From IMG/VR virus record IMGVR_UViG_3300047564_006846, positions 1 through 23,834 of that record: DNA of 23,834 nucleotides, one strand, 5' to 3'. The position numbers and the translations under genes are program-made. Source of the stretch: a virus. Under the pieces are notes generated by a model. That model was not told the DNA's origin. It worked only from the letters and a program-made list of their open reading frames with translations, and did no database searches. Below, in pieces: positions 5,777 through 23,017 of this stretch (the first letter of the stretch is position 1; each line of letters begins with the position of its first letter).

Positions 5777-5784
5777 CTTAAATA
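5777..5784 (+). promoter_or_regulatory. Late promoter box (CTTAAATA), variant
   Basis: CTTAAATA keeps the TAAATA core of the T4 late box and lies 5 bases before the ATG at 5790, the same distance as the exact box at 10008-10015. By T4 spacing (box at -13 to -6) the transcript would start on the A of the ATG. Confidence 0.55.
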
Positions 5785-5789
5785 AGAGC

Positions 5790-6005
5790 ATGGATTTCGC
5801 TAGCTTAGTGTCACAAGTTTTAAATGAAGATGTTGTTGCAGGTGGCGAGGGTTCTGCGTTTGGAGCAGGCGTAACAAACACTGCAACCGCTTTTAGTGGA
5901 GACACATATGCTCCAGGAGATGCTCGTGTTCCTTATAGTATCTACGGAGGAATAATTACAAGAGCAGGACTTCGTAAAAAACGCAAGAAACATAAAAAGT
6001 CCTAA
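5790..6005 (+). CDS. Small late protein, candidate head-internal protein
   Basis: A 71-residue protein. It starts MDFASLVSQVLNEDVVAGG, then is Gly/Ala-rich and disordered-looking (YAPGDARVP), and ends in a very basic tail KKRKKHKKS. I do not recognise a named family. The N-terminus is a short amphipathic stretch ending in LNE, matching the L-x-E cleavage sites of T4-type prohead proteases and resembling the starts of three other late genes here. The basic tail suggests DNA contact. ATG 5790 was chosen over the upstream in-frame 5679 because a late-promoter box sits 5 bases before it and the upstream frame does not look like protein. It leads a three-gene plus-strand operon. Confidence 0.68.
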   Translation: MDFASLVSQVLNEDVVAGGEGSAFGAGVTNTATAFSGDTYAPGDARVPYSIYGGIITRAGLRKKRKKHKKS

Positions 6006-6007
6006 AT

Positions 6008-6433
6008 ATGGAATTGGGTCATTGGCAGCTTCAAGAAGGTCTTGAACCTAACTCCGATGCGTTTGGTTTTATATATGAAATTACAAACACAGTCAATAAC
6101 AGAAAATACATTGGTAAAAAACAACGCGTTTCGAGAATCAAGCGTAAACCTCTTAAAGGTAAATCCAGGAATAGAATTGATTACAAGGAATCGGATTGGA
6201 AATCGTACACTGGTTCTTCGAAAGAGCTTAATGAAGACATTGAAAAGCATGGAAAGGATAAGTTTGTTTTTACCATATTAGAATGGTGCAACTCCAAGTT
6301 TGAATTGGGTTACAAAGAAATAAAAATCCAGTTACAAAAAGATGTTTTGTTGAAAGAAGAATATTATAATGGTATTATTAATGTGCGTGTTGGAAGACCT
6401 CCAAAAAACTTTACATTAAATGAACAACATTAA
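6008..6433 (+). CDS. GIY-YIG family endonuclease
   Basis: A 141-residue protein. FGFIYEI (19-25) and YIGKK (34-38) are the paired GIY and YIG strands; they are followed by a basic loop and WKSYTGSSKEL. Late in the protein EEYYN gives the expected catalytic Glu and the conserved Asn. This is a single nuclease domain without an obvious extra DNA-recognition domain, like free-standing homing endonucleases of T4-type phages (Seg/Hef-like). It begins 2 bases after the preceding stop and overlaps the next gene by 14 bases. Its place in a late operon suggests it is either a mobile intruder or a resident nuclease, perhaps linked to recombination or packaging; the sequence does not decide. Confidence 0.8.
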   Translation: MELGHWQLQEGLEPNSDAFGFIYEITNTVNNRKYIGKKQRVSRIKRKPLKGKSRNRIDYKESDWKSYTGSSKELNEDIEKHGKDKFVFTILEWCNSKFELGYKEIKIQLQKDVLLKEEYYNGIINVRVGRPPKNFTLNEQH

Positions 6434-6842
6434 AAATTTTCCAAAATCAAGAGTAACTGTAATAGATGTATATCCTTATTTTAAGGAAGGCTTTAAGCAA
6501 GCTATTGATTTTTGCAAAAGGCATAACATTTCGCTAGGAAGTCCAGATGGTTCTAGAGTTGTTTTTGGCTACAGTTTAAAACATATTAAAGAAGGTTGCC
6601 AAAAAACCAAAAATCAATATCAAACAGTAACCTGTGTTTCTAAAAAGGGAGTTACAAAAAAACTAGAACACTTTATGGAAACACACTTCGCAACACTAGC
6701 TCGCTTTTTCCCTCATCCTTTTTGTGGAACGTTCGACTTATCTTCTCCTGAGCTAGAGATGGCTGCTGAGAGTTTGGTACTCAAAAATACCAAAAAAATA
6801 GATACAAAAAACCTAGCTAAAAGTCTAAAGTTAAAAGTTTAG
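6420..6842 (+). CDS. Hypothetical protein
   Basis: A 140-residue soluble protein of unknown function. It is rich in Lys and Phe, with predicted alternating strands and helices (VTVIDVYPYFKEGFKQAIDF near the start) and scattered Cys and His (CKRH, CQKTK, HFMETHF, FPHPFC) that do not form a clear zinc motif. It overlaps the GIY-YIG gene by 14 bases and converges on the minus-strand kinase with an 8-base gap and no visible terminator. It has no membrane segment. Confidence 0.6.
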   Translation: MNNIKNFPKSRVTVIDVYPYFKEGFKQAIDFCKRHNISLGSPDGSRVVFGYSLKHIKEGCQKTKNQYQTVTCVSKKGVTKKLEHFMETHFATLARFFPHPFCGTFDLSSPELEMAAESLVLKNTKKIDTKNLAKSLKLKV

Positions 6843-6850
6843 TCAACCAA

Positions 6851-7495
6851 CTATCCGACATCTGCAATAAGAGATCCGTCTTCTTCTCCGTAAGGCTTGC
6901 CACTATCTTTAACATAAAGCTTTATTTGAGGCAATCTCATATCTGGTGGACCATCTAAAGTAATAACAGGTGGGCAATCTTCAAGTGGGAAAAAGGCTCC
7001 TGTGTTTTTTTCATATGAGCTAACCAATGCTCTAAAGATGTTATCAATCTCATCTCTAAAAGAAGCATCTTCGGTTTCTCTGTTTTCTCTTTCTGTTAAC
7101 GGAATTTCGGGTCGTGCAGGAACATAAAACAGCAAATCATAGTACTTTAAAGATAAGGTTGCTAGTGCCTGACAATCAATAATATATTCTTTTGTAAACC
7201 CTTCATCGTTTTTAGCATAATGCCATAAAGTATAAGCAATGTTATCTACAACACTACGATCAAACACCAAAAACTTTTCTTCTGATGCTGAAGCTTGCTG
7301 TGCCTCATCAATTAATGCATTTAAGATAATCTTTTGAGATTCTTTTGTTCCAGCTTTATTTAAAGGTATTTTTTGTTCTGCAACAATATCTCTATAAGAC
7401 GTTTCGGGTCTTTTATACATTGGCCATTGTTTAAGAAACTCTTCAATGAGAGTAGTCTTTCCAGATGCGTGAGGTCCAATAAAAGCAATTTTCAT
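6851..7495 (-). CDS. P-loop kinase/ATPase (AAA_28/NadR-like)
   Basis: A 214-residue protein. It starts MKIAFIGPHASGKTT, a Walker A motif at 7-15. LVFDRSVVDNIAY gives the Asp-Arg of a substrate-binding motif seen in nucleotide and nicotinamide-riboside kinases, and LLFYVPARPEI is a typical core strand with a basic lid following (TERENRETED). It therefore probably phosphorylates a small molecule or nucleotide. The last 40 residues are an acidic tail of unknown role. The gene lies directly after queE with a 3-base gap, so it may serve the same pathway, but that is context only. The substrate is not deducible. Confidence 0.75.
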   Translation of the reverse strand: MKIAFIGPHASGKTTLIEEFLKQWPMYKRPETSYRDIVAEQKIPLNKAGTKESQKIILNALIDEAQQASASEEKFLVFDRSVVDNIAYTLWHYAKNDEGFTKEYIIDCQALATLSLKYYDLLFYVPARPEIPLTERENRETEDASFRDEIDNIFRALVSSYEKNTGAFFPLEDCPPVITLDGPPDMRLPQIKLYVKDSGKPYGEEDGSLIADVG

Positions 7496-7498
7496 TGA

Positions 7499-8260
7499 TT
7501 ATACTTTAAGAGCTTTATCCCAAATTACAAGCTGCAATCTCGGAGAAAAGTTTACGTGCATTGCTTTTGCGTATTCAGCTACAGCTAAAGAGTTTTCAAC
7601 ATGTTCTTTACGAGAACCACAGCATGGCATAAACCAAACACGTTGAAGTGGAACGTTAATGCCTTCATAATCATCAACATACTTGCGCCATATCTCTTCA
7701 ATGTCTTTATCTGAATTAATAACAAACTTAAACCCAGAGTTATGAGCAACGTGCCATCTAAGTACTTCAGGTTTATATGTCTTTTCTTCTGGATCTCCGT
7801 TTGTAGTTAGCTTTGGAGAAGTTGTAAACGAAGCATTAAACCCAGTGACCCATTCTTCGCTTGGAGTTAGTGTAGCATTTGTCTCAAAATCGATTCTTGG
7901 TGTGAAACCATATCTATCGACAAACTGTCTCATAAACTTTAGGAGCTGCTTTTCTTGAATAAAAGGTTCTCCGCCAGTAATTTTAAAAATTGCTCTGTTC
8001 CTTAAATGCTCAATGTAGTTGTTTTCTTCAAGAAGCCGAAAAACTTCCTCAAACGTCAATTTGTTTTTAACAGACCATGAAACAAACGAATCACAACCAT
8101 GAGGGGAATCAGGAGAAGCAAAGCCCTTGCATGTTAAATTGCACATAGCCATTCTCATAAAAACCGATGGCTGTCCTACAAACTCTCCCTCTCCTTCCAG
8201 GGTATAGAATAATTTATCGTCGCTTAAAAAAAGCGTTTCTTGTTTAATTTCTGTGTTCAT
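7499..8260 (-). CDS. queE: 7-carboxy-7-deazaguanine synthase (radical SAM, QueE-like)
   Basis: A 253-residue protein. FYTLEGEGEFVGQPSVFMRM (18-37) is the hallmark QueE start. It is followed by CNLTC (Cys40, Cys44) and GCDS (Cys56), so the iron-sulfur cysteines are spaced CX3C with a longer insertion before the third Cys than the textbook CX3CX2C. ITGGEPFIQ is the SAM-binding GGEP motif. The enzyme converts carboxy-tetrahydropterin to carboxy-deazaguanine, the step after QueD, whose gene is directly upstream and overlaps by 17 bases. ATG 8260 was chosen because the in-frame 8296 start would lie well inside queD. Likely part of a preQ0-type pathway for DNA or tRNA modification. Confidence 0.88.
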   Translation of the reverse strand: MNTEIKQETLFLSDDKLFYTLEGEGEFVGQPSVFMRMAMCNLTCKGFASPDSPHGCDSFVSWSVKNKLTFEEVFRLLEENNYIEHLRNRAIFKITGGEPFIQEKQLLKFMRQFVDRYGFTPRIDFETNATLTPSEEWVTGFNASFTTSPKLTTNGDPEEKTYKPEVLRWHVAHNSGFKFVINSDKDIEEIWRKYVDDYEGINVPLQRVWFMPCCGSRKEHVENSLAVAEYAKAMHVNFSPRLQLVIWDKALKV

Positions 8261-8693
8261 ATATTGCTGAATTATTTTCGTGCTCCCAAACTTCAACCTT
8301 TGTTACGCGACAACGATTTTTTAGACTATCGTTAGTTTCAATAAAAGTTTTTGCAGCATTATAGCACCACTCTGCTGTTTTTTCAATCCCTACACCATCC
8401 ATAACTCTTAGATCACAACCACCAATGTTATGCAGTTCTTGGAATTTTTCTAAAAGAGGATCATCAGAAGCAATACAAAGAGTGTGATCAAACTGACATT
8501 GGAGATAGTTTTTAAGAGCTTTTAAGCCTCCAAAATCTACAACCCAGTTACGCTCATCTAAGCTATCCGCTTCAAACCAAAATTTAGCCATAAGTCTGTA
8601 GCCATGAACGTATTTGCAATGAGATTCTAATGCTCTCCACTGTCTAAATGCACATGAACCGAGTTCTATAATTTTCGTTGATCTATAATTCAT
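8244..8693 (-). CDS. queD: 6-carboxytetrahydropterin synthase-like (QueD family)
   Basis: A 149-residue protein. SHCKYVHGY (24-32) corresponds to the catalytic Cys and zinc-binding C...HGH segment, WVVDFGGLK (50-58) to the conserved DF.xLK strand, FDH (68-70) to the catalytic LDH, and VEVWEHENNSA near 133-143 to the substrate-binding Glu. It should convert dihydroneopterin triphosphate to carboxy-tetrahydropterin, feeding QueE. The E. coli HGH is HGY here and the early zinc-ligand His is absent (FRQWRA). A divergent zinc site with His25 is possible, or a different subfamily. The start overlaps the end of the upstream gene by 4 bases (ATGA). Confidence 0.83.
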   Translation of the reverse strand: MNYRSTKIIELGSCAFRQWRALESHCKYVHGYRLMAKFWFEADSLDERNWVVDFGGLKALKNYLQCQFDHTLCIASDDPLLEKFQELHNIGGCDLRVMDGVGIEKTAEWCYNAAKTFIETNDSLKNRCRVTKVEVWEHENNSAIYEHRN

Positions 8694-8965
8694 ACTCCCT
8701 CAAAGTTTACCACATTTATATTATTTTTAAACTCATTAAAAATTTCACTTGAAATTTGATCTTCGTAATTTTTTTCTTCCATAAACTCAATAAACTTAAG
8801 CTTAATGTTTGGATCAAAATTTTTCAACTTTTTAGCTAAATCAAACAATTGCTGTTGTCGTACTTCATCAACAGAACCAATAATGCTAACTGAAGATGTG
8901 AATAACAAAGCAGAAATTACTGATTCAAACTCCTCTTTCGTAAATTCGACTTGTATTTTTTTCAT
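8690..8965 (-). CDS. Hypothetical protein
   Basis: A 91-residue protein beginning MKKIQVEFTKEEFESVISALL, a pattern often seen in small helical regulators or nucleic-acid-associated phage proteins, followed by more helices rich in Phe, Asp and Lys. No named family is recognised. It is the first gene of the queD-queE-kinase operon and stands directly behind a good sigma70-type promoter. Confidence 0.6.
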   Translation of the reverse strand: MKKIQVEFTKEEFESVISALLFTSSVSIIGSVDEVRQQQLFDLAKKLKNFDPNIKLKFIEFMEEKNYEDQISSEIFNEFKNNINVVNFEGV

Positions 8966-8972
8966 TAAGAAA

Positions 8973-9000
8973 AATATACTACGTTTTTTCCTACAGTCAA
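8973..9000 (-). promoter_or_regulatory. Sigma70-type promoter for the queD-queE operon
   Basis: On the minus strand, TTGACT (8995-9000), 16 bases, then TATATT (8973-8978). Only 7 bases separate the -10 box from the ATG at 8965. A normal start point would therefore fall on or next to the start codon, giving a leaderless message. Confidence 0.7.
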
Positions 9001-9006
9001 GAGCAA

Positions 9007-9627
9007 TTACGATTTAATCAACAAAGCAATATCCTCAAAAGGCAATCCGTCTTCGTGAGCTTTATCAATAACCTCAAACAATTCATTAATAACTGCTCCA
9101 ACCTTATCTTTATACACTAGATATTTTTTATATCTTTCTACGTCTGTAATATTTGTATTTTCTTTTTCCAATAACGAGTGAGTCTCAAGTAGATCAACCT
9201 TTGCACCTAGAAATCTTTTAAGACGAAAAACGTTTTTAAGCATAGGAGAATAAGATGCATGCTCTTCAATTGTTTCTGGTTGTTTAATTTTATTACCATT
9301 TTTATCAATAACTCCAAGCTTATAGGCTTCAAAGTCAGTAAACTCTTTTTTCAGCTCGTGAATTAGAACACTAAAATCCAAGAAACTTTGTATTTGTTCT
9401 CTAAACATTGAGTTGTAGTTTACACCATGCACGTGTATGTCACCTATTGGATTAACTCTACACCCCCTACCATAGTTAGGAGAACCACAATAAGCACACT
9501 TAGTCGGATCATCTGGATGGAAATGTGTTTCATGTGGACCGTAACGACATCCTTTGCCGCGGTTTGTAGATCCGCAATACATACAACGGCTTTGTTGCAA
9601 TGGCTTTGCTTTATTGGTTGGTTGCAT
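9007..9627 (-). CDS. Protein with two tandem Cys/His zinc-binding motifs
   Basis: A 206-residue protein. Two 29-residue-spaced copies of a C-x2-C-G-S-x-N-x-G-x-G-C-R...H-x-H motif fill the first 70 residues: Cys15, Cys18, Cys27, His35, His37 and Cys44, Cys47, Cys56, His65, His67. Each copy offers five possible zinc ligands. The rest is a mostly helical, charged domain (about 75-206) with no family I recognise. It may bind nucleic acid or another phage protein. Its ATG at 9627 overlaps the end of the upstream late gene by 17 bases, so it probably shares that gene's late promoter. Confidence 0.72.
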   Translation of the reverse strand: MQPTNKAKPLQQSRCMYCGSTNRGKGCRYGPHETHFHPDDPTKCAYCGSPNYGRGCRVNPIGDIHVHGVNYNSMFREQIQSFLDFSVLIHELKKEFTDFEAYKLGVIDKNGNKIKQPETIEEHASYSPMLKNVFRLKRFLGAKVDLLETHSLLEKENTNITDVERYKKYLVYKDKVGAVINELFEVIDKAHEDGLPFEDIALLIKS

Positions 9628-9964
9628 TTGCTGTATTGCTCTGCTTATCTATAAATGACTTCTGCTGAGAGTGCTTTTCAAGCTCTTCAATTGATTTTTT
9701 AATAACATTTAAGAATTCAGGATTAGCTTTGTTTCTTTCAAGAAAGTCCATAACCTCTTTGCCTAAATCTGCTGAATCTTGCTGTGTTTTTTCTTGGCTA
9801 CCTTCTGGTTGTTTTTGTTGATCTACAGGAGCAGTTGGTCCTTTTAATGAAGGATTTTGTTGTCTCATTGGAGCTGAAGTAGTTGGATTTGTAGCTCCGA
9901 CGTTAGAAGCACCAAAATTTTGTTCACTCATTAAAGAATTTAGAAGATTGTCAAACGATTTCAT
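9611..9964 (-). CDS. Small late protein, candidate head-internal protein
   Basis: A 117-residue protein. It starts MKSFDNLLNSLMSEQNFG, a short amphipathic stretch ending in L-M-S-E, then a Gln/Pro/Ser/Asn-rich disordered middle, then a helix near 68-100 (KEVMDFLERN). No named family. The N-terminus resembles those of the late genes at 5790, 10021 and 12685 and could be a capsid-targeting peptide cut after Glu14. ATG 9964 lies 6 bases after a late-promoter box, so the message would be leaderless. It is followed by the tandem zinc-motif gene with a 17-base overlap. Confidence 0.7.
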   Translation of the reverse strand: MKSFDNLLNSLMSEQNFGASNVGATNPTTSAPMRQQNPSLKGPTAPVDQQKQPEGSQEKTQQDSADLGKEVMDFLERNKANPEFLNVIKKSIEELEKHSQQKSFIDKQSNTANATNQ

Positions 9965-9970
9965 ACTAAG

Positions 9971-9978
9971 TATTTATG
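9971..9978 (-). promoter_or_regulatory. Late promoter box (CATAAATA)
   Basis: On the minus strand CATAAATA precedes the ATG at 9964 by 6 bases (CTTAGT). It differs from TATAAATA at the first base only. T4 late boxes cover -13 to -6, so transcription would start at about the ATG. Confidence 0.75.
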
Positions 9979-10007
9979 CCAAAAATACATTTTTCTACTT
10001 TAAAAAC

Positions 10008-10015
10008 TATAAATA
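10008..10015 (+). promoter_or_regulatory. Late promoter box (TATAAATA)
   Basis: An exact T4 late box on the plus strand, 5 bases (AGATA) before the ATG at 10021. It supports 10021 rather than 9976 as the start of the large late gene. Confidence 0.8.
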
Positions 10016-10020
10016 AGATA

Positions 10021-11652
10021 ATGATTGATTTTAGAAAGCTCGTTTTAGAGGCTCCTCAGCCAGCAAACGAACCAAATCCAGCTGCAGCTCCTTCTGCTGG
10101 AGTTGCTCCAACTCCGTCTACTCCAACTGATACAAAACAAGAAGCCACTAAAGAAGATCAGCAAGCCAAAGATGTAACTCAGTTTTTTGATACTAATCAT
10201 TACAACGAACTTAAAACTGCCTTCGAAACAAAATATAAAAACCTAGAACTCAAGTTTCCAACTGAAGATGAGTTTAAAAATATTGTTTATACAGCAGCAA
10301 ACAATTCTATTAGAAACACAAAAGATCCAACTGCTTTTGCAAACGTTGCTCTCGTTTACCCTCTTTTAGATTTAATTGCTCAAGTTAAAACAAGCTTAAA
10401 AAATAAACAAAACGCTGAACCAGCATACAAAGGCTTTTTAAAGCGTTTGAATGGTTCGCAAGGAACTCCTTTGGATTACGTTCCAGTAGATCCGTGGGCG
10501 TTGTCCGTTAAGCAAGAATATTTTACAAGAGATAAAGCTGAGTTAGGAGAATTAGCTTTAAACAAGCATACAGACAAAAGCATTTTAGATACAATACTAG
10601 CACTTTTATCAGCACGCAGAAAACAAGTTGTTAAAAAATTAACATTTAAAAAAGATGTCTCAAAAAACGTAGATCCAAATAAAATTCCTAATGCATTAAA
10701 CTTTGTAAAGGATCTAATTTATTATCCTGAGCGATATGCAGGTGGTAATGTTCCAATTCCACCAAAGCTTACAGGGCTGTATGATATTGATTCTGCTAGA
10801 GAGTTACTAACAATTGGTCGTTTAGCTAAAGCTTTTTTTCAAGGGGAAGCAGGTAAAATACAACCACCTTTAGAGCAAAGTAAATTTCAAGAAGCGTATG
10901 AGGCATTTTTAAACAACAATCCCCTCAAAGACGAAAACTTTGATTGGACTCCTTACCAACAACAAAAAAATCAAGAAGATCAGTCTCAAGAAGAAGAGCA
11001 AACTACAAACACAGAAAGTTTTAATCTTTTGTATGATCAATTATATGCTTTGCTTTCCGAAAAAAATGCTAAACAAAGACGCAAAGCTCGCAGACAACGA
11101 GAGCGAGAGCAACAAACTAATACAGACAACAATCCTCCAGCTGATCAAGATCAACAAACAACTAACAATGAGGATAAACCCCAAAAAGGAGATAAAGTAA
11201 ATTATGGTCCAGGCTATGAGTTTGAGTTTGATGGTACAGACTGGACACACGAAGGCACTAAAGTATCAAAACCAGGAGATGCCGAAAAACTTAACAATAA
11301 ATGGAAAGAGCAAAAAACTCCAAATCCTCTGCCGCCATCTTCTGAGCAAGACTCTTCAGAAGAATCTTCTGAAGAAAAAGAACAGTCAACAACTGAAGAA
11401 GAGCCAAAACAAGAGAAACAGACTCCTCAAGAAAATGCTGCTCAAATTGAAAAAGGTGGATATACGCTAAACAATGTAAAGCAGCTGGGCGAACAAAGAA
11501 ACACTCAAGCCAAAGCACTATATGATGCTTTGAAAAAGTTTGCTGATTATATTAGAGCTGGCATTGAACGAGATTATACAGGAGCAATCCAATCAGCTGC
11601 TGGAGCAATGAAGTCACTCTCAAAAATTGGTGGCCCTACAATGGGCAAGTAG
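10021..11652 (+). CDS. Large late protein with low-complexity regions, candidate virion/head protein
   Basis: A 543-residue protein. It starts MIDFRKLVLEAPQPA, then a Pro/Ala/Thr-rich linker (about 10-50), a mixed helical domain (about 50-305), Gln/Glu-rich linkers, an internal segment SFNLLYDQLYALLSE (333-347) followed by a basic stretch (KQRRKARRQRERE), more acidic Ser/Glu-rich linker, and a C-terminal helical end. No named family is recognised. The N-terminus (LVLE|A) and the internal LLSE|K both look like L-x-E prohead-protease sites. This suggests a head-internal or scaffold-related protein that is processed (inference). The in-frame ATG at 9976 is less likely. Its 3' end overlaps the primase gene tail-to-tail by 17 bases. 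Confidence 0.78.
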   Translation: MIDFRKLVLEAPQPANEPNPAAAPSAGVAPTPSTPTDTKQEATKEDQQAKDVTQFFDTNHYNELKTAFETKYKNLELKFPTEDEFKNIVYTAANNSIRNTKDPTAFANVALVYPLLDLIAQVKTSLKNKQNAEPAYKGFLKRLNGSQGTPLDYVPVDPWALSVKQEYFTRDKAELGELALNKHTDKSILDTILALLSARRKQVVKKLTFKKDVSKNVDPNKIPNALNFVKDLIYYPERYAGGNVPIPPKLTGLYDIDSARELLTIGRLAKAFFQGEAGKIQPPLEQSKFQEAYEAFLNNNPLKDENFDWTPYQQQKNQEDQSQEEEQTTNTESFNLLYDQLYALLSEKNAKQRRKARRQREREQQTNTDNNPPADQDQQTTNNEDKPQKGDKVNYGPGYEFEFDGTDWTHEGTKVSKPGDAEKLNNKWKEQKTPNPLPPSSEQDSSEESSEEKEQSTTEEEPKQEKQTPQENAAQIEKGGYTLNNVKQLGEQRNTQAKALYDALKKFADYIRAGIERDYTGAIQSAAGAMKSLSKIGGPTMGK

Positions 11653-12646
11653 CAAGCTTTTGCTTAATAAGAGCTTCTGGACCAGAGGCTGAGTGCTTTA
11701 CAACAAACTGCCACGGAATTTCATTCGTTTTTAACTGACAGCAAATTTCGTTAAAATCTTTAAACTGTCTAAACTCTGAAGGCCACATAAAAACCCTTTT
11801 GCCTTCTTTAATATGCTTTTCAATTCTTTTAGCTGTTTGTTTGTTGTTCTTATCGTTATCAAAAACGTATATTAATTCATACCCCAACATGCTTCGAAGC
11901 TTTGTTTCTTGCTTGTGTGTTGGAGTTAAAGAGGCAATAGCAACTCCATTTTTAACAAACATGGAATCAATAGGTCCTTCAAAGATAAAAATGTATGGAA
12001 CTTCAGAAGTTACGTTGTTAATATTGAATAGACACTTCTCTCCAAACTTTGTAAGATAACGAGGAAACTGATTGTTGGTTAGCGCTCTAGTTTGATAACA
12101 AGCAACTTGATTGCTCTCATCATAAAAAGGAATAACTAATCTGTTTTTGTGAACTTTGTCTTCTAAAGATACAAAAAACTTCTTACAAGAATTAACAGCC
12201 TCAAACAAACGTCGTTGTTCACAGTATTCTTTTGCTAGCTTTACAAACTTGCTATCTTTGTAATATTCGATTTGTTGAGGGTCTGTTAAGTCAATTGAAT
12301 TGGTTGGTAGATCCTCAAGTTCTAATACAGTAGCTGGTTCTTTAACAGTTTTAATCTTTTGCTGAGGAATCTCTTGAATCTTTTCGTTGTTACGTTTAAC
12401 AATTTCCGGAAACGTTAAATGCGCTACTTCTTTAATCCAATCTAATGGCCTCCACGAACGACAGCAGTTATGACAGTAAAAATACTGTTTGTTTGGAAAG
12501 TAATACAACCTTCTAGTTCGACCAGCAGACTTTCCTTCTTTGCAAACAGGACACTCTGCATTAAAAGTGTTTTGGTACTTCTTGTGTACAGGTCTCTTGC
12601 AATGAGTATAAAATAACTCGACTAAAAACTCTTCATTAAGCTGCAC
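11636..12646 (-). CDS. 61: DNA primase, T4 gp61/DnaG-like
   Basis: A 336-residue protein. A zinc-binding domain (Cys32, Cys35, Cys58, Cys61; CPVC...CHNC) is followed by a linker, a region with RLVIPFYDESN and YQTRAL that matches the primase RNA-polymerase domain, and a TOPRIM fold with IFEGPIDSMF (Glu223) and VFDNDKN (Asp263, Asp265). It should make RNA primers for lagging-strand synthesis with the replicative helicase. Size is close to T4 gp61 (342). The start is GTG at 12646 with no Shine-Dalgarno. The C-terminal codons overlap the convergent late gene by 17 bases. Confidence 0.88.
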   Translation of the reverse strand: MQLNEEFLVELFYTHCKRPVHKKYQNTFNAECPVCKEGKSAGRTRRLYYFPNKQYFYCHNCCRSWRPLDWIKEVAHLTFPEIVKRNNEKIQEIPQQKIKTVKEPATVLELEDLPTNSIDLTDPQQIEYYKDSKFVKLAKEYCEQRRLFEAVNSCKKFFVSLEDKVHKNRLVIPFYDESNQVACYQTRALTNNQFPRYLTKFGEKCLFNINNVTSEVPYIFIFEGPIDSMFVKNGVAIASLTPTHKQETKLRSMLGYELIYVFDNDKNNKQTAKRIEKHIKEGKRVFMWPSEFRQFKDFNEICCQLKTNEIPWQFVVKHSASGPEALIKQKLATCPL

Positions 12647-12684
12647 AGTCTAACAATACTAGATGTCAGACAAATTTCTACAGC

Positions 12685-13101
12685 TTATTTCATTGAATGA
12701 ATCAAGAAATTCTTAAGAGTTTCAACAACTTCACGGAGTGTTTTAGCTGCTGAAATAATGTCTGAGCTCGTTCTGCCAGAGATACCCTCAAATGGAGTTT
12801 CTGGTTTGTCGAGTTTTGAAACTAGTGAAGCTAGTGATTCCCCTTCAGTTCCATTTAGAGTGTTTGCAAATTCTTCAATCTTAAAGACATAGTCTTTAAG
12901 AGTAGAACCTTCACTATTAGAAGCTTCTGGTGCTGAAGTTTCGTCGTCTGTTGCTAAATCAATATCTTGATTTGTATCAAGTTCTGGAAGAGGCATGGGT
13001 TCTACATCATCAAAATCTTCAGGTGATGCAACTTCATCGCTTTTAATCTTTGCTTCTTCTTCTGTAACAAAAACTTTCTTGTATAAATCTTCGAACTTCA
13101 T
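12685..13101 (-). CDS. Acidic late protein, candidate head-internal protein
   Basis: A 138-residue, strongly acidic protein. It starts MKFEDLYKKVFVTEEEA, with a hydrophobic/basic first dozen residues ending in V-T-E. Then comes an Asp/Glu/Pro-rich disordered part (SPEDFDDVEPMPLPELDT) and a helical C-terminal half. No named family. The N-terminal pattern resembles the other late genes with possible capsid-targeting peptides, although V-x-E is a weaker match than L-x-E. ATG 13101 is 6 bases after a late box, predicting a leaderless message. The primase gene follows after a 38-base gap. Confidence 0.7.
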   Translation of the reverse strand: MKFEDLYKKVFVTEEEAKIKSDEVASPEDFDDVEPMPLPELDTNQDIDLATDDETSAPEASNSEGSTLKDYVFKIEEFANTLNGTEGESLASLVSKLDKPETPFEGISGRTSSDIISAAKTLREVVETLKNFLIHSMK

Positions 13102-13107
13102 AATTAG

Positions 13108-13115
13108 TATTTATG
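13108..13115 (-). promoter_or_regulatory. Late promoter box (CATAAATA) overlapping a plus-strand start codon
   Basis: On the minus strand CATAAATA lies 6 bases (CTAATT) before the ATG at 13101. Read on the plus strand the box is TATTTATG, and its last three bases are the ATG of the divergent gene at 13113. Confidence 0.75.
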
Positions 13116-15162: not shown

Positions 15163-15213
15163 TTCTATTACTTACAATTATGCTTTAAAAGTATGGACAA
15201 AACAACTCTTTTA

Positions 15214-16787: not shown

Positions 16788-17046
16788 AGTAACGTGGTTT
16801 AATTTTATTAGTGTTTGGATCTTTTTCAAGCAATCCTTCTGTAAGATAATAATCTATAACTCTATTGAGTGCTTGTATAATTTCTTGTTCAGTTTCTAAA
16901 TTTTTAAAGGCACTTTTGGGCAAAAAAATTTCTCTATCAGATAAAGCAAGTAAAGAGTCTTTATATTTTTGAATAACATGAAAGTTTTTTAAACAGTCTA
17001 TGTTGTGGAGATATATTTTAGGATTTTTAATCTCGTTATAAGACAT
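16744..17046 (-). CDS. Hypothetical protein
   Basis: A 100-residue, charged, mostly helical protein from MSYNEIKNPKIYLHNIDC. No domain is recognised. ATG 17046 is preferred; a GTG at 17076 would add 10 residues. Its end overlaps the GMP reductase gene. It is the promoter-proximal gene of the 13444-17046 operon. Confidence 0.5.
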   Translation of the reverse strand: MSYNEIKNPKIYLHNIDCLKNFHVIQKYKDSLLALSDREIFLPKSAFKNLETEQEIIQALNRVIDYYLTEGLLEKDPNTNKIKPRYYEPIAELQRHTPHS

Positions 17047-17096
17047 TTTTATTGGGATTACTGTATGAGTTTCCACAAATTACAGAAAAAATCAAC

Positions 17097-17112
17097 CGAG
17101 AACTTATTCTCG
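17097..17112. other. Hairpin CGAGAA-CTTA-TTCTCG
   Basis: A perfect 6-bp stem with a 4-base loop in the 100-base gap between divergent genes. On the minus strand a T-rich stretch follows five bases later. It could be a weak terminator or an operator. Confidence 0.35.
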
Positions 17113-17164
17113 AAGTATGTCTAAAAAGTCAACATTTTTACGTGTTATTTTGAACACAAGCTAC

Positions 17165-17172
17165 TATAAATA
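17165..17172 (+). promoter_or_regulatory. Late promoter box (TATAAATA)
   Basis: An exact late box on the plus strand, 8 bases before the ATG at 17181. The predicted leader is about three bases. Confidence 0.75.
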
Positions 17173-17180
17173 TCTGCACC

Positions 17181-17399
17181 ATGAAAAACAATCGACCCAA
17201 AGTCGATCTTGGATTGGTTTATTCAATGTATGGTGGCATAGGTTATCCTGGTTACTATATGGACCCAGAATTATCTAAAGAACTATTTCGTTTAATGAGA
17301 TATTACTTTAGAAGACTCTGGAGATCTGTTAGAAGATCTTATAGGTCTCATATAGCAAACATGGAAAAACGCTCTATAGCCTTCTCCAACTTGCTTTAA
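17181..17399 (+). CDS. Small basic Tyr/Arg-rich late protein
   Basis: A 72-residue protein: a Gly/Tyr-rich first part (LVYSMYGGIGYPGYYMDPE) and an Arg-rich helix (RYYFRRLWRSVRRSYRSH). No family is recognised. The late-promoter box just upstream and strong basic charge suggest a virion or DNA-associated structural protein. It stands alone between two minus-strand operons and its stop lies 1 base from the convergent gene. Confidence 0.62.
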   Translation: MKNNRPKVDLGLVYSMYGGIGYPGYYMDPELSKELFRLMRYYFRRLWRSVRRSYRSHIANMEKRSIAFSNLL

Positions 17400-17400
17400 A

Positions 17401-17628
17401 CTATCTACCAAGATCTAGTTCAGCTTGAGCTTCTTCTTTTAACCATAGCGTAACTTGGTCAAAAGACCAGTCTATGGTTTTGGGAACTCTTTGCCATTTT
17501 TCCTTGTAAGCAATTTTGAAATCGTCCCACAAACGAGGATCAATATTGCAGCAGGGAGCTTCGCTTCCAAACAACACAAGGTTTTCGTCCACTAAATTGT
17601 TGTATTCTTTTGTTGATAATCCAGCCAT
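17401..17628 (-). CDS. Hypothetical small protein
   Basis: A 75-residue protein with APCCNIDPRLWDDFKIAY in the middle and an acidic helix at the end. It has two adjacent Cys but no full metal motif. It follows the 17630-17839 gene with a 1-base gap. Function unknown. Confidence 0.5.
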   Translation of the reverse strand: MAGLSTKEYNNLVDENLVLFGSEAPCCNIDPRLWDDFKIAYKEKWQRVPKTIDWSFDQVTLWLKEEAQAELDLGR

Positions 17629-17629
17629 A

Positions 17630-17839
17630 TTAGTTATTAGATAGCAATAACGCTAAACGAGATTCTTCTCCTGTTCCGTCTTCATACTTTCCATAATACC
17701 ACTTTGGATTAGTTGTAGGTTTAATAAACTTTTGATGGAGGTTAACAATTGGATCATAACCATCCTCGTAACCTTTTACAACAACTTCAATGTTGGAATC
17801 TATTTTTGATAGATAATCTATTAACTCTTTTACTGTCAT
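17630..17839 (-). CDS. Small conserved-type protein (MTVKELIDYL start)
   Basis: A 69-residue protein. MTVKELIDYLSKIDSNIEVVV is a pattern seen at the start of many short phage and bacterial proteins of unknown function: a helix then a beta strand, with an aromatic Gly/Tyr-rich second half (WYYGKYEDG). It overlaps the upstream gene by 4 bases (ATGA). Confidence 0.55.
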   Translation of the reverse strand: MTVKELIDYLSKIDSNIEVVVKGYEDGYDPIVNLHQKFIKPTTNPKWYYGKYEDGTGEESRLALLLSNN

Positions 17840-18063
17840 ACATTCTTAATAGCAAATTCAACGTCAACTTTTTCAAACAATGAAAGTGCTAAACTGTTAT
17901 CTTCATAAATGTTGCAAAGACGGCCTGTGTTTAAATGGACAGCGTTATAGCTTTCGTGTTTAGGTGTTATTTTTTGATATAAATTAAACACGTCTTTTTC
18001 CTCGCTAAAATTTTTATAAGCAAAAAAATCTCCAACAGCTAAATTGTGCCACTTAACTTTCAT
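17836..18063 (-). CDS. Hypothetical small protein
   Basis: A 75-residue protein starting MKVKWHNLAVGDFFAYK; the strand-turn pattern suggests a small beta-barrel. It overlaps the end of the metallophosphoesterase gene by 11 bases and the next gene by 4, so it belongs to the same operon. Function unknown. Confidence 0.5.
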   Translation of the reverse strand: MKVKWHNLAVGDFFAYKNFSEEKDVFNLYQKITPKHESYNAVHLNTGRLCNIYEDNSLALSLFEKVDVEFAIKNV

Positions 18064-18916
18064 TGTCGTGTCTTAACGTTCCTTCATAATTTGTTAAATT
18101 AGTAACCCGAGAAGAAAGCTTATACGCAGCTTTCTCTTTAGGGATAGATTTGGTTGTAAACCTACCATCTATGATTATACCATAATCCTTCTCAGTATCA
18201 AGGTTCCAACTTTCATAATGCTTATTCATGCCCAAACATTCCGGTTCCCGACAAGTGGTGTGACCAACAATTTGTTTGCCAATAGCTTCTGAAGCTTGAA
18301 ACTCATTATTCCAATCAAGCCAAAGAGCACCACCTACATTACAATCCCCGCCGCGACAATATCCGGCACCTGAAATAAGATAGTTATGAGGCCGAGTAAA
18401 ATCTCTAAAGTTCTTCCAAACAACTGGAATAATCTTATCGATAACATCATCAGCAGTCAGACCATAGGGGATATGCTTTTCAGACAAACCTGCATGAGAA
18501 AGAGTAAAGCCTTGGGTGCGATGTACAATCTTAAAGTTCTCAGTAAAGAACTCATCCTTCAACCCCCGATCATAGAACTGATGGCGGAACTTCTTAGCCT
18601 TTGAAGCTGTAAACCCCGAACAATAATATTTGACGGTTTTAGATATTCTATTAGAAGAGTAATCCTTGTTTTCGTGAATATAGGACAAATCGTGATTACC
18701 AATTAAGAATACAAACTTATCTTTATTGGGATGGTCTAAGACCAAATACTTAAGAAACTCACAGGTTTCTTCAAACCCAGCAACTTTCGGAGGATCGTAA
18801 AACGAATCAAACCAATCTCCAAGAAAAACAACCTCGTCATAGTTTTTTTCAGCTTCGAGAATTGCTTTAACAGAATCAATTCGTTGATGAATATCAGCAA
18901 TAACTAAGGTTTTCAT
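18053..18916 (-). CDS. Calcineurin-like metallophosphoesterase
   Basis: A 287-residue protein. The motifs are IADIH (Asp8, His10), LGDWFDS (32-38), IGNHD (72-76), LSHAG and VGHT, the full set for a two-metal phosphoesterase. It resembles protein phosphatase/Ap4A-hydrolase-type enzymes more than Mre11. A Gly/Cys loop (YCRGGDCNVGG) is unusual. ATG 18916 was chosen over the in-frame 18952, because the latter would lie within a GC hairpin and adds residues coded by it. One line I counted was about 47% G+C against about 30% in a typical neighbouring line. Substrate unknown. Confidence 0.83.
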   Translation of the reverse strand: MKTLVIADIHQRIDSVKAILEAEKNYDEVVFLGDWFDSFYDPPKVAGFEETCEFLKYLVLDHPNKDKFVFLIGNHDLSYIHENKDYSSNRISKTVKYYCSGFTASKAKKFRHQFYDRGLKDEFFTENFKIVHRTQGFTLSHAGLSEKHIPYGLTADDVIDKIIPVVWKNFRDFTRPHNYLISGAGYCRGGDCNVGGALWLDWNNEFQASEAIGKQIVGHTTCREPECLGMNKHYESWNLDTEKDYGIIIDGRFTTKSIPKEKAAYKLSSRVTNLTNYEGTLRHDNES

Positions 18917-18927
18917 ATTTTTATAAA

Positions 18928-18950
18928 GGCGGGGAGGAAACCTCCCCGCC
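18928..18950 (-). terminator. Strong GC hairpin, probable terminator after the DUF932 gene
   Basis: GGCGGGGAGG and CCTCCCCGCC form a perfect 10-bp stem with a 3-base loop. On the minus strand it is followed by TTTATAAAAAT, a broken T-tract. It ends the DUF932 transcript or stabilises the downstream message, which starts only 11 bases later. Confidence 0.6.
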
Positions 18951-18971
18951 AATATTTGTTCAGCTTACAAA

Positions 18972-19823
18972 TTAAGCTGCAATTTTGCCTTTTTTACCGT
19001 CTTTAACCAAAAGCTGAGTCAAGGCTTTCGACAAACTTTCACGTTCATGTGTAAGAGTTGTTTCGGCTCCCTTCCAAAGGAGTTGGTTGACACGAACACT
19101 GTCAAAGTAACCTTTGATCGGACGAGTGAATCCCTCCACTCCACGAACCAGATTTTCTTGAACACGGTTGTAAACTTGCCAAGTAGAGTTGCCAGAATCA
19201 GCCTCACGACGGGATTCTAACAAACGCTCTGCTACACGACCCATGTCCTGGAAACGCTTCGGCATTTCAGGGCGATAGTTGAAGCGTCCGCTAATTGCAT
19301 AGCGCACAAAGTCAAGCTGCTCATTTTGATCGAGTTCGCGTTGCTTGAAATCGTTGATGGTTCCCATGATTTTGGGAAAGCGTGACGAAATCTGGGCAAC
19401 TTGTTCCATGATTTCAGACAAACGATCGTCAGAGAAACGATGTTTAGTACGAATTGTTTCCATAGGACCGGAAGCAACAATCAAACCATTTGAGCAAACA
19501 AATCGGAAAAACCCAATTGCAAACATCAAACGTTTAGTGCGGTTGTGAGAGTTGAACATCTCAATCCGAGGAATACCCTCTTGGTGATCTTGCACCTTAA
19601 AGTCATTCTCGTGCACCAAAGTGATACGATGCTGAGCATAAGGTGAAGTGCTTTGTGCCGTTGCGTTTGTAATCTGCCAACCGTAGTCTTGAACACGCTC
19701 GAGAATCTCGCGTGTAGAAACGAATTGGTAGCGATTGGACACGTTACTAGCTGCTTGAGTTGCATTGATCGCTGGAACAAGCTCAATAGCCTTATCTAAT
19801 GTAATTGGATTAATTGTTTCCAT
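18972..19823 (-). CDS. DUF932 (phage/plasmid-like) family protein
   Basis: A 283-residue protein. NSHNRTKRL (91-99) and FFRFVCSNGLIV (105-116) are the typical core of the DUF932/DUF945 family, found on phages, plasmids and other mobile elements; its biochemical role is not settled. The N-terminal part (VSNRYQFVSTREILE) and a long helical C-terminal half fit. Lines of this gene reach about 55% G+C, far above the roughly 30% of many neighbours. That points to recent transfer or codon adaptation for high expression. It has its own 57-base upstream gap and a strong hairpin downstream, so it looks like a single-gene transcript. Confidence 0.8.
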   Translation of the reverse strand: METINPITLDKAIELVPAINATQAASNVSNRYQFVSTREILERVQDYGWQITNATAQSTSPYAQHRITLVHENDFKVQDHQEGIPRIEMFNSHNRTKRLMFAIGFFRFVCSNGLIVASGPMETIRTKHRFSDDRLSEIMEQVAQISSRFPKIMGTINDFKQRELDQNEQLDFVRYAISGRFNYRPEMPKRFQDMGRVAERLLESRREADSGNSTWQVYNRVQENLVRGVEGFTRPIKGYFDSVRVNQLLWKGAETTLTHERESLSKALTQLLVKDGKKGKIAA

Positions 19824-19880
19824 ATGTTTTTATTACAAGGACTACTATCCAATATGTTAAAGGACAAGGCAACAGTCTTT

Positions 19881-20069
19881 TTAACTTTTTGTGTTTTTTA
19901 ACTGTATTAATTCTTTTAAAGCGTCTTCAAATGACACAAACGTTACTTCATTCTTTGGTCCAATATCAGGACAATCCATTGTTTGAGCAATATCAAACAT
20001 TTGCTGTTTTACGCGATTGACTAAAGAAGAAACCTCTGGATCTCTTTCAATTATTGGTCGTTGGTTCAC
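19881..20069 (-). CDS. Hypothetical small protein
   Basis: A 62-residue protein with a GTG start that overlaps the upstream stop (GTGA). It is charged and helical, with DCPDIGPKNEVTF in the middle. No family. The overlap supports translational coupling, which is the main reason to keep it. Confidence 0.45.
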   Translation of the reverse strand: MNQRPIIERDPEVSSLVNRVKQQMFDIAQTMDCPDIGPKNEVTFVSFEDALKELIQLKNTKS

Positions 20070-20476
20070 TTATGATATTTCATGAACAAGTCAAAAACTT
20101 TAAATGCTGCATCAAACAAAAATACAGCTACAGCACCATAAATTGCCCACATTGCTTTTGACTTTATAGATGATTGTTTATCTACGTCTATGTCCCTTTC
20201 GATCTGAGCAACCTTTTGACTGACACCGTCTTCATCATATAAAACAAAAGTCATTTTCTTTTCTAAAGATTCTAAAGCTTGAACTGCTGTTAGTCTCCAA
20301 TGTTTATATTCAGCTTCTGAAACAGCATATAGTTGTTTAAAATCAGCAATTTCTTTGTTTAGGTTTTGAAGAACTCTGTTGTGGTCTTCTAGTTGTTGAA
20401 GCACCATAATTTGATATTTTGACCAACCGTTTCCATCGTAGTGGTTTCGGTTGTTTTCAGTTAAGTGCTCATTCAT
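20066..20476 (-). CDS. Coiled-coil protein with C-terminal membrane anchor
   Basis: A 136-residue protein. Residues 20-100 are a long helix with heptad-like Leu/Ile spacing (VLQQLEDHNRVLQNLNKEI). Residues 108-131 are one membrane segment (MWAIYGAVAVFLFDAAFKVF), ending in a short basic tail. The layout resembles small phage membrane accessory proteins such as XhlA-type lysis helpers, but the match is only in shape. It lies just downstream of the lysis block. A weak late-promoter box is upstream at 20509. Confidence 0.6.
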   Translation of the reverse strand: MNEHLTENNRNHYDGNGWSKYQIMVLQQLEDHNRVLQNLNKEIADFKQLYAVSEAEYKHWRLTAVQALESLEKKMTFVLYDEDGVSQKVAQIERDIDVDKQSSIKSKAMWAIYGAVAVFLFDAAFKVFDLFMKYHK

Positions 20477-20508
20477 AAATTTACGGCGTTATGTAATAAT
20501 ACTTATTC

Positions 20509-20516
20509 TATTTAAA
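20509..20516 (-). promoter_or_regulatory. Possible late promoter box (TTTAAATA)
   Basis: On the minus strand TTTAAATA is one base from the late consensus, but it lies 32 bases before the ATG at 20476 rather than 5-8. The call is weak. Confidence 0.3.
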
Positions 20517-20519
20517 GTG

Positions 20520-20999
20520 TTAAATAGAAGGGTTATACGCCTCAAAATAAGAGAAATCAGAAGCAATTCCTATTGTTTGATTTTCTCTTTCATCACATAC
20601 AGCAAAACGCCAAAGCAACTTGACTTTTTGTCCACTTTTAGCTTTCCATTTTGTAACCAAGGATTTTTTACGATCGTCTGGGTATAAAATTTTTTGATTT
20701 TGTAGTTTATTAAAATAACTTCTGGCTTCTTCTAACTCACTCGTGTCCAAAAAATAGCTCCAAATACTCTGACCTATGACATCATTTCGCGTATAACCAA
20801 GTATTGTAGTTATAGCATCGCTTGCTTTTAAGATAAAACCTTTGCTATCCAAAAAAACAATGATGTCCGGACTTGCTGCAAAGATTAGTGCTAATTGACT
20901 CTCAAGCTCTGATAAATATTTGGACAGACGATTGAGACTTTGTTGTCTATTCTCAATATCTTTGAGTAGTTTCTCATTCTCCAAAAGCACACTATTCAT
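20520..20999 (-). CDS. PAS-domain protein
   Basis: A 159-residue protein: an N-terminal coiled coil (about 4-35) and a PAS sensor domain (about 36-150). IFAASPDIIVFLDSKGFILKAS (39-60), TILGYTRNDVIGQSIWSYF (65-83) and a C-terminal sheet with LLWRFAVCDE follow the PAS order closely. No kinase, HTH or cyclase output domain follows. PAS domains sense ligands, redox or light in host regulators; one alone in a phage late region is unusual. ATG 20999 is 5 bases past the end of the endolysin gene; the in-frame 21035 start would lie inside that gene. Confidence 0.78.
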   Translation of the reverse strand: MNSVLLENEKLLKDIENRQQSLNRLSKYLSELESQLALIFAASPDIIVFLDSKGFILKASDAITTILGYTRNDVIGQSIWSYFLDTSELEEARSYFNKLQNQKILYPDDRKKSLVTKWKAKSGQKVKLLWRFAVCDERENQTIGIASDFSYFEAYNPSI

Positions 21000-21004
21000 T
21001 TTAA

Positions 21005-21697
21005 CTATAGCCTTGCAAACTGGAAGTGCATCCAATCGTAATTACGCTCTCTTCCTAAGCTAACTCCCCCTTCTTCTTCTACAAATTTCCAAAATTCGTT
21101 ATACACGGGTTTAGCTAAAGTAGCTTTTTCCTTGCTCCATTTTAGTTGATTGTTATCTGGATCTAAATCGATTGCAGCTCCCCAAGAATGAATAGACCAC
21201 GAACTACCTCCTCTCATTCGGCGAACGTTAACACAACCTCCGAAAACATCCAATCTTAATTTTGAAACGTCTTTGCCATAATTCTTCAAAGTTTTTTCAA
21301 ATACATTGTAAAAAGCCTTTGCACATTTTTCATGACAAGAAATTTTTTTAATAGTTACTCCTGTGTCCCATGCCAATTTCATTGGATAAGGTAATTCAAG
21401 GGAAGTCATGTTTTCTCCCACAGGGCCATAAAAGTTGCACATAGAAGTGTAATCTTGTTTAGGCCAACGCTGAGAAAGAGGAGTGTTGTTGGAAACGTTT
21501 GTTACGAACGCCCATGTTTTTGGACCAACAACACCATCTGGCTTTAGCCCATGTTTAAGTTGAAATTTTAGAGTCTCTTTTTCTGTTTGAGGACCAAAAG
21601 CTCCATCAACTACAGGAAGCTTGTATCCAGCAGATTGCAAAAACATTTGCCACTGTTTTACTTCTTCTCCTACGTCTCCTTTTTGTAGCTCTTTCAT
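21005..21697 (-). CDS. Endolysin: peptidoglycan-binding domain plus M15 peptidase
   Basis: A 230-residue protein. Residues 5-65 are a PGBD repeat (GDVGEEVKQWQMFLQSAGY, VDGAFGPQTE, PDGVVGPKTW). The C-terminal part is a VanY/M15 zinc peptidase with SIHSWGAAIDLD (His170, Asp177) and YDWMHFQF (Asp221, His224) as metal and catalytic residues. It should cleave peptide cross-links of peptidoglycan for lysis. No signal peptide is present, so it needs a holin. It overlaps the end of the holin candidate by 4 bases (ATGA). Confidence 0.87.
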   Translation of the reverse strand: MKELQKGDVGEEVKQWQMFLQSAGYKLPVVDGAFGPQTEKETLKFQLKHGLKPDGVVGPKTWAFVTNVSNNTPLSQRWPKQDYTSMCNFYGPVGENMTSLELPYPMKLAWDTGVTIKKISCHEKCAKAFYNVFEKTLKNYGKDVSKLRLDVFGGCVNVRRMRGGSSWSIHSWGAAIDLDPDNNQLKWSKEKATLAKPVYNEFWKFVEEEGGVSLGRERNYDWMHFQFARL

Positions 21698-22170
21698 TCT
21701 CCTTCCTTTCTAAACACCCACTCAATTGGAGCATAAGACGGATCGTCTTTAAATTTATTTGCATACACAATTGTTTGCTCTTCTATAACTTTTTCTTCTC
21801 TTTGTTCAGATGTTAGAATTGAATCAAGAGTTGAACTCGAAGTGCTACCATACTTAAAGTCAATAGCAGCTTGAACACCAATATAAGAAGCAACAATGAT
21901 AGCTACAATCTCAATAGTCTTAGTGAAGATGGTAACGTAACCTGCAATAAGCTCATTCTTTGCAGGTAATAAAAAAAGAATACCAACAGAAAGCAGATAA
22001 AAAGCTAACAGGCCAATAAAAGAAGAAAAAGCTAAAAAGAATTTTTTTGACTTAAAATGGTTTTCTTGGCGCAATGAACTTTGCAATTCTATTGGGGTGC
22101 CAGGAGGAACTCTATTTGAAGAAAGAAACGAGGCCGCATTTTTTGCAATATTAGCTATGGAGTCCCACAT
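21694..22170 (-). CDS. Putative holin (two membrane segments)
   Basis: A 158-residue protein with a basic, Ser-rich N-terminal part, two close membrane helices at about 44-68 (FLAFSSFIGLLAFYLLSVGI) and 74-102 (VTIFTKTIEIVAIIVASYIG), and a charged C-terminal tail. Two helices directly before an endolysin gene are typical of holins, but the protein is longer than most and no family is recognised, so the role is inferred from position. A late-promoter box is 6 bases upstream of the ATG. Confidence 0.6.
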   Translation of the reverse strand: MWDSIANIAKNAASFLSSNRVPPGTPIELQSSLRQENHFKSKKFFLAFSSFIGLLAFYLLSVGILFLLPAKNELIAGYVTIFTKTIEIVAIIVASYIGVQAAIDFKYGSTSSSTLDSILTSEQREEKVIEEQTIVYANKFKDDPSYAPIEWVFRKEGE

Positions 22171-22176
22171 TAAAAA

Positions 22177-22184
22177 TATTTATT
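22177..22184 (-). promoter_or_regulatory. Late promoter box (AATAAATA)
   Basis: On the minus strand AATAAATA lies 6 bases (TTTTTA) before the ATG at 22170. It differs from the consensus at the first base. It would drive the holin, endolysin and PAS genes. Confidence 0.7.
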
Positions 22185-22213
22185 CGAACTACGTCGAAAA
22201 ATATCCCTAGAGC

Positions 22214-22732
22214 TTATAAGAAAAACCAAACAAGAGCTGCAAACAAAGCAGCTGTGCCAACTGGAACTCCAATATTATATGGTGGTGGAGCAAAATTCAT
22301 GAACTGAAGTCCAAGAAGAACACCACCGGCAGCAGCAATAAAAGCAGCAATAAGCTTTAGTCTGTGATAGCGCTTTACAGCACTATTATACTTCTCCATA
22401 AACTTCTGGGCTTCGGCTTGTTGAATAATGCCCCACTCTTTGAGTGCATCAGCTGACTTTTGAACCTCTACTGTCTTAGCTTCTGCATTTTTTGTTTGAA
22501 CTAAAGCCTTATCAAGAGAAGCTTTAAGTTTTGTATTCTCTTCTTTAGCAGCTTTAAGCTCAGCAGCAATACCTTTTACAATCTCTCTACCTTCGTTAAT
22601 GGTCGGCTTGGGTGTTGGCTTAGCAACAGCAGCTGGTGTAGGTTGAGGTTTAGGTTCTTTCTTTCCAAAGGGCCACGCAAAACCAGTTGATGCCAAACAA
22701 ACAAAAATAATAAATGATAAGAACTGTTTCAT
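22214..22732 (-). CDS. Exported coiled-coil protein with C-terminal membrane hairpin
   Basis: A 172-residue protein. A signal peptide (about 1-19, MKQFLSFIIFVCLASTGFA) is followed by a Pro/Lys/Thr linker, a long Ala/Lys/Glu coiled coil (about 45-118), and two C-terminal membrane segments (LIAAFIAAAGGVLLGL and GVPVGTAALFAALVWFFL). It lies between the lipoprotein and holin genes, where spanins often sit. However, a classical inner spanin has its single membrane segment at the N-terminus, so this would be an unusual layout. Cleavage and topology are not proven. Confidence 0.6.
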   Translation of the reverse strand: MKQFLSFIIFVCLASTGFAWPFGKKEPKPQPTPAAVAKPTPKPTINEGREIVKGIAAELKAAKEENTKLKASLDKALVQTKNAEAKTVEVQKSADALKEWGIIQQAEAQKFMEKYNSAVKRYHRLKLIAAFIAAAGGVLLGLQFMNFAPPPYNIGVPVGTAALFAALVWFFL

Positions 22733-22733
22733 A

Positions 22734-23003
22734 TTAAGGTTTAATTACGTTTTTGTTTGCTTGTTGTTCTGCTTCCTTTTCAATTTGTTCGAGAAGAGCA
22801 TCTAATCTTTCTGCTAATGTTAAAGCTTTGTCAATCTTTTGTGCTACAACTGTATTTTGATCTCCAGCCTCTTTAAGAACTTCTTTAGTCTCTGTTAATG
22901 ATTCAATAACTTGAGCTGTTGATACTGTAGGAGGAGGTGTTTGTTTGGTAGTAGCACACCCAGTACAGACTAAAACAATAGCTAAAAATAGAAGCAAACG
23001 CAT
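22734..23003 (-). CDS. Small lipoprotein (outer-spanin candidate)
   Basis: An 89-residue protein. MRLLLFLAIVLVCTGCATT is a lipoprotein signal with the modified Cys at 16 (the lipobox has Cys at -3, slightly atypical). After it comes a short Pro/Thr linker and a helix of about 55 residues (VIESLTETKEVLKEAG onward). A small lipoprotein beside an exported coiled-coil protein and endolysin fits an outer spanin that links the outer membrane during lysis. ATG 23003 is 6 bases after an exact late box. Confidence 0.68.
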   Translation of the reverse strand: MRLLLFLAIVLVCTGCATTKQTPPPTVSTAQVIESLTETKEVLKEAGDQNTVVAQKIDKALTLAERLDALLEQIEKEAEQQANKNVIKP

Positions 23004-23009
23004 ATTAGC

Positions 23010-23017
23010 TATTTATA
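23010..23017 (-). promoter_or_regulatory. Late promoter box (TATAAATA)
   Basis: An exact late box on the minus strand, 6 bases (GCTAAT) before the ATG at 23003, predicting a leaderless message for the lipoprotein. Confidence 0.8.

Follow-up and report, generated by a model that had tools for sequence, protein, structure and literature searches.

The window, that is, the whole 23.8 kb stretch of DNA analyzed here, is an IMG/VR virus fragment (IMGVR_UViG_3300047564_006846) whose genes lie mostly on the minus strand. It carries the T4-type genes gp47, gp55, UvsW, and UvsY, the gp55-like factor claimed in the original prediction being present as a homolog (Table 1). No tRNA was found when position 5561 was checked. 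QueD/QueE-like genes and a kinase-like NTPase occupy positions 6851–8693, a possible sign of deazapurine DNA modification. Searches with gp55 and UvsW led to 30-odd contigs of the same clade; the clade sample used in this work comprised 18 contigs read fully or nearly so plus the window (19 contigs, about 1.07 Mb), all of them fragments and some closely similar to one another. The clade was well apart from T4, Kyanoviridae, and SAR11 phages in the gp43, terL, and UvsW trees, with the window nested inside it in the UvsW tree (support 100/99), and no match was obtained by megablast of the window against phages. The clade is one of uncultured T4-like freshwater phages; its hosts are probably Verrucomicrobiota.

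Table 1. Promoter elements and associated genes in the window.
Feature	Position	Strand	Remarks
gp55-like late sigma factor	2822..3463	(-)	phrog_234, E 8e-19
Late box CTTAAATA	5777..5784	(+)	5 nt before ATG 5790
Late gene, conserved small protein MDFASLVSQVLNEDV..., 71 aa	5790..6005	(+)	orthologs share start M
Early gene behind locked sigma70 promoter, 91 aa	8690..8965	(-)	similar genes of about 90 aa in three other contigs
-10 TATATT, sigma70-type	8973..8978	(-)	7 nt before ATG 8965
-35 TTGACT, sigma70-type, locked early promoter	8995..9000	(-)	16-bp spacer to TATATT
Late gene MKSFDNLLNSLMSEQ..., 117 aa	9611..9964	(-)	no PHROG or Pfam match
Late box CATAAATA	9971..9978	(-)	6 nt before ATG 9964
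Late box TATAAATA	10008..10015	(+)	5 nt before ATG 10021
Late gene MIDFRKLVLEAPQ..., 543 aa	10021..11652	(+)	start 10021, not 9976, by box geometry
Late gene MKFEDLYKKVFVTEE..., 138 aa	12685..13101	(-)	orthologs in 9 contigs
Late box CATAAATA	13108..13115	(-)	6 nt before ATG 13101
Variant late box TAAGTA, candidate	15169..15174	(-)	6 nt before ATG 15162
Late box TATAAATA	17165..17172	(+)	8 nt before ATG 17181
Predicted late gene, 72 aa	17181..17399	(+)	no significant match
Endolysin, operon-distal, with Shine-Dalgarno site	21008..21697	(-)	phrog_17001, E 2.8e-75; upstream AAGGAAGGAGA-ATG
Late gene, small membrane protein	21694..22170	(-)	directly upstream of endolysin
Late box AATAAATA	22177..22184	(-)	6 nt before ATG 22170
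Late gene, Rz-like spanin, lipoprotein-like N terminus	22734..23003	(-)	phrog_456, E 0.0015, weak
Late box TATAAATA	23010..23017	(-)	6 nt before ATG 23003

All seven T4-type late boxes that had been claimed for the window were located where they were said to be, and at the claimed distances from the ATG (Table 1). Only 0.19 boxes at a gap of 4–8 nt would be expected for its approximately 42 genes (Poisson P = 1.7e-9; expectation derived from the clade background rate for TAAATA). Since TATAAATA-like words were not unusually numerous in the window as a whole (61 vs. 50.7 in shuffles, not significant), the signal resides in the spacing of the boxes. Most orthologs of gene 5790 retained the box at a gap of 5 nt (n = 15), and 7 of the 9 shown for gene 13101 kept it within 4–9 nt. 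Besides the TAAGTA candidate listed in Table 1, a second and weaker variant box, TAATTA, lies 6 nt before 13113(+). PHROG/Pfam matching indicated no function for the 543-aa protein. The Shine-Dalgarno (SD) site of the endolysin is clean (GGAAGGAGA-ATG), unlike most clade genes. Many late-box proteins (window genes 5790, 9964, 10021, and 13101, and box genes of the clade contig G022) share an N-terminal stretch F..(L/I)....L.E, as in MEFQKIVEEVLVED, MKFEDLYKKVF, and MIKFEELVESFLLE, which we take to resemble the capsid-targeting sequences carried by the internal head proteins of T4.

The box-to-ATG distance was a property of the clade. The sharp peak at 5–8 nt that had been predicted for whole genomes was found in the 19 contigs and was absent from T4 and the cyanophages. 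Distances from NATAAATA to the next ATG opening an ORF of 40 codons or more were 5 nt in 62 cases, 6 in 29, 7 in 11, and 8 in 8, with a tail of 29 cases at 9–14 nt and 16 at 15–40 nt. When the 6-mers exactly 5 nt before the ATG of 1412 genes were ranked, with no motif chosen beforehand, TAAATA was obtained 104 times (background 1.3), a count inflated by a start chooser that preferred box-adjacent ATGs; TAATTA and TAAGTA were obtained 26 and 22 times (background 1.15 and 0.43, respectively), an enrichment that is unbiased because the start chooser favored TAAATA only, and TAACTA did not occur at all. The clade consensus is thus TAA(A/T/G)TA. At gaps of 5–7 nt TAAATA was counted 180 times vs. 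14–50 for 14 other permutations, the exception being ATAAAT (108), which overlaps the box. Among 191 orthologs not chosen for having a box, 150 presented TAA(A/G/T)TA at 4–9 nt, vs. 3 in a control window 34–39 nt upstream. Box genes were located at operon starts much more frequently than other genes, as reflected by more opposite-strand neighbors (36 vs. 13%) and fewer tight same-strand junctions (8 vs. 47%), and their start codon was mostly ATG, locked GTG or TTG starts being near background in the clade.

The boxes precede late genes, in agreement with the late-promoter function originally assigned to them. In the 217 kb contig G022 the box genes included terL, tail sheath, tail tube, the gp13 head-tail adaptor, baseplate hub, and tail fiber, and those of the window include the spanin-like protein and the membrane protein next to the endolysin. 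The genes for portal, prohead protease, and major capsid protein were exceptions, with leaders of 9–14 nt or longer or an operon-distal position, and no near box was found before the clade capsid gene. The gp55 homolog would be the factor acting on these boxes. Regarding its T4 partners, the gp45 clamp models PF09116 and PF02916 gave nothing above the cut-off in five contigs, BLAST with HTVC008M proteins as queries matched neither gp33 nor gp45, and no clamp was recognized by eye in the gene order beside gp44; these proteins have possibly diverged.

The T4 late box spans positions -13 to -6 (PMC1524935), so that a gap of 5 nt would place +1 on the A of the ATG. The base at -1 was C or T in 87, 75, 87, and 92% of the genes with gaps of 5, 6, 7, and 8 nt, respectively, vs. 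56% of the non-box genes. A pyrimidine in every gap class suggests that the polymerase starts on the A of the ATG each time, although U or C at -1 could instead reflect a translational preference. Codon-position mismatches directly after the ATG (0.34/0.20/0.54) indicated coding, under selection, from the box-adjacent ATG. SD sites were found in about 1% of the locked genes, 10% of the non-box clade genes, and 8–10% of random 12-mers, and no class of clade genes used them above background. The lack of SD sites is therefore clade-wide and does not discriminate; it is no special mark of the late genes.

Early genes displayed the same arrangement. The sigma70-type promoter claimed at 8973 with a 7-base fit is real (TTGACT-16 bp-TATATT-7 nt-ATG), and like promoters precede like genes of about 90 aa in three other contigs (G022 38911, G011 89007, and G028 50621). 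TTGAC presented its maximum in the clade 29–31 nt before the ATG (69 vs. 4.8 expected, about 14-fold), a lock absent from seven other T4-like phages. Where a -10 was recognizable, it most often ended 6–7 nt before the ATG, with a spacer of 16–17 bp. This geometry would place the early +1, too, on the A of the ATG. The original interpretation is supported with one correction here: the gp55 homolog is there, but the design is not specific to it or to late genes, because early promoters of the sigma70 type show the same lock. Early promoters of G022 (e.g., 391–436) and G011 also showed an extended -35, TTGACNTGTCC. TGTCC is repeated there much more often than background would give, perhaps as an operator or an additional contact.

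We consider it highly probable, from the sequence data, that early and late promoters of the clade are fused to the ATG of the first gene, giving leaderless or nearly leaderless mRNAs. In both classes transcription would begin at the start codon of the operon's leading gene or within 0–3 nt of it. The gp55-type box TAA(A/T/G)TA, ending 5 nt (less often 6–8) before the ATG, would serve the late genes, and TTGAC...-10 promoters with a -10 ending 6–7 nt before the ATG would serve the early ones. Ribosomes would then start on the 5'-terminal AUG without an SD helix. Leaderless expression in the clade is very likely in view of the promoter spacing. For late mRNAs, as originally proposed, the spacing, initiator, SD, and ortholog tests all point to it, but as a tendency that is not absolute, given the portal, protease, and capsid genes.

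Three other readings were weighed. Transcription might begin a few bases upstream, leaving leaders of 1–8 nt that are very short rather than absent. Gaps of 6–8 nt are common and some genes have 9–14 nt, as such leaders would predict, whereas the pre-ATG base is still a pyrimidine (75–92%) in gap classes 6–8, which fits +1 on the A; we regard this reading as unlikely, if worth keeping in mind. We give little credence to TAAATA being an A/T-rich signal for translation initiation, as in non-SD hosts, instead of a promoter. The clade makes no use of SD sites, as would be expected from such a signal, and non-SD genes are known for A/T-rich upstream regions (PMC5397173). Nevertheless, the element is sequence-specific (TAAATA yes, TAACTA no), identical to the late box of T4 and cyanophages, and a mark of operon starts and late genes. 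Moreover, a purely translational signal leaves unexplained the TTGAC -35 hexamer locked upstream of other genes, and this early lock is therefore the strongest argument for a spacing set by the start of transcription.

It is very improbable that the box-adjacent ATG is a by-product of the promoter, with the true start at a later ATG behind an ordinary leader. The start codons are predictions, and the gene finder preferred box-adjacent ATGs for TAAATA. Against a later start, orthologous proteins align from the box-adjacent M, the codon-position bias is seen from codon 2 onward, the enrichment of TAAGTA and TAATTA arose without start selection, and the published HTVC008M annotations picked the same box-adjacent starts. 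Promoter-ATG fusion thus remains the preferred reading.

Two clade contigs, G013 and G022, encode a bS21 protein, the window not being among them; phage bS21 of verrucomicrobial type was located at L074:10248-10457(-) and G022 216510(+). All 40 genome-collection matches of the G013 bS21 (40/40) corresponded to Verrucomicrobiota, many of them from lakes. In 12 such genomes TTGAC...TANNNT occurred 76 times at the leaderless gap (6–7 nt) vs. 18 times at a gap 10 nt longer, and SD sites were at background in 400 kb of one of these genomes. A Verrucomicrobiota host is thus suggested with moderate confidence by one gene located outside the window. A gp55 search of genome-collection contigs for host-linked phage contigs found none. 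A Bacteroidota host, suggested by the SD lack, was rejected, as TANNTTTG was not enriched and the phage bS21 matches Verrucomicrobiota. A broader scenario, in which these phages of Verrucomicrobiota rebuilt their early and late programme around leaderless mRNAs and use their own bS21 to retune host ribosomes toward such mRNAs late in infection, appears to us rather doubtful.

T4 serves as the standard example of late genes expressed from leadered, SD-driven mRNAs. A clade fusing promoter and start codon in both promoter classes would represent a simple and testable mode of gene expression that seems not to have been described for T4-type viruses. Such a fusion would tie the choice of transcription start directly to translation and leave operon-first genes without room for leader-based control, and the layout predicts the mode of translation in poorly known freshwater Verrucomicrobiota. 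In practice, both the start of a gene and its late timing would be marked in otherwise unannotated phage DNA by a T4-type box lying 5 nt ahead of an ATG. The cultured SAR11 phages with a partial version make the leaderless prediction testable now.

The clade shares with the T4 late promoter system (gp55/gp33/gp45; Straboviridae and cyanomyoviruses) the box sequence, a gp55 homolog, and late virion genes. In T4, S-PM2, and P-SSM4, however, the boxes are spread broadly 12–40 nt before the ATG, in T4 with SD sites, as compared to 5–8 nt without SD sites in the clade; boxes at 4–8 vs. 15–40 nt numbered 0 vs. 27 in T4, 1 vs. 26 in S-PM2, and 3 vs. 21 in P-SSM4. The TAAGTA and TAATTA variants are also a clade feature, unlike T4-type late promoters. 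None of the literature searched, most subscription papers lying outside it, described promoters locked to the ATG in a T4-like phage. The Pelagibacter phages HTVC008M and Mosig and the methylophage Melnitz have 9, 7, and 3 boxes, respectively, exactly 5 nt before the ATG and without SD sites; unlike the clade, they present a second, SD-bearing set at 15–40 nt (6, 23, and 18 boxes) and their early TTGAC promoters are not locked. The SAR11 phages HTVC008M and Mosig thus show a partial version of the clade lock. In HTVC008M, SD sites were found in 7% of box-locked genes, 4/4 far-box genes, and 55% of other genes, and the independently annotated starts of the gp25, gp48, gp2, and tape-measure homologs each follow a box at a gap of exactly 5 nt. 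Papers on this phage group are silent on box spacing (PMC9004378, PMC7029224). Stenotrophomonas phage CM1 (OP883945) is mixed like Mosig, with 7 boxes exactly 5 nt before the ATG and 32 at 15–40 nt.

Freshwater phages encoding bS21 have been assigned to Bacteroidetes hosts (PMC9723584); like them, the clade consists of freshwater myoviruses with a phage bS21, but its bS21 matches Verrucomicrobiota. Bacterial leaderless genes (Deinococcus-Thermus, Actinobacteria) have a TA-like -10 about 10–12 nt before the start and no SD site (PMC3160421, PMC12340547), and the clade likewise places a -10-type signal at about this distance, lacks SD sites, and uses AUG starts. Those bacterial genes depend on cellular sigma70, whereas the clade phages would apply the layout to both host-type and gp55-type promoters.
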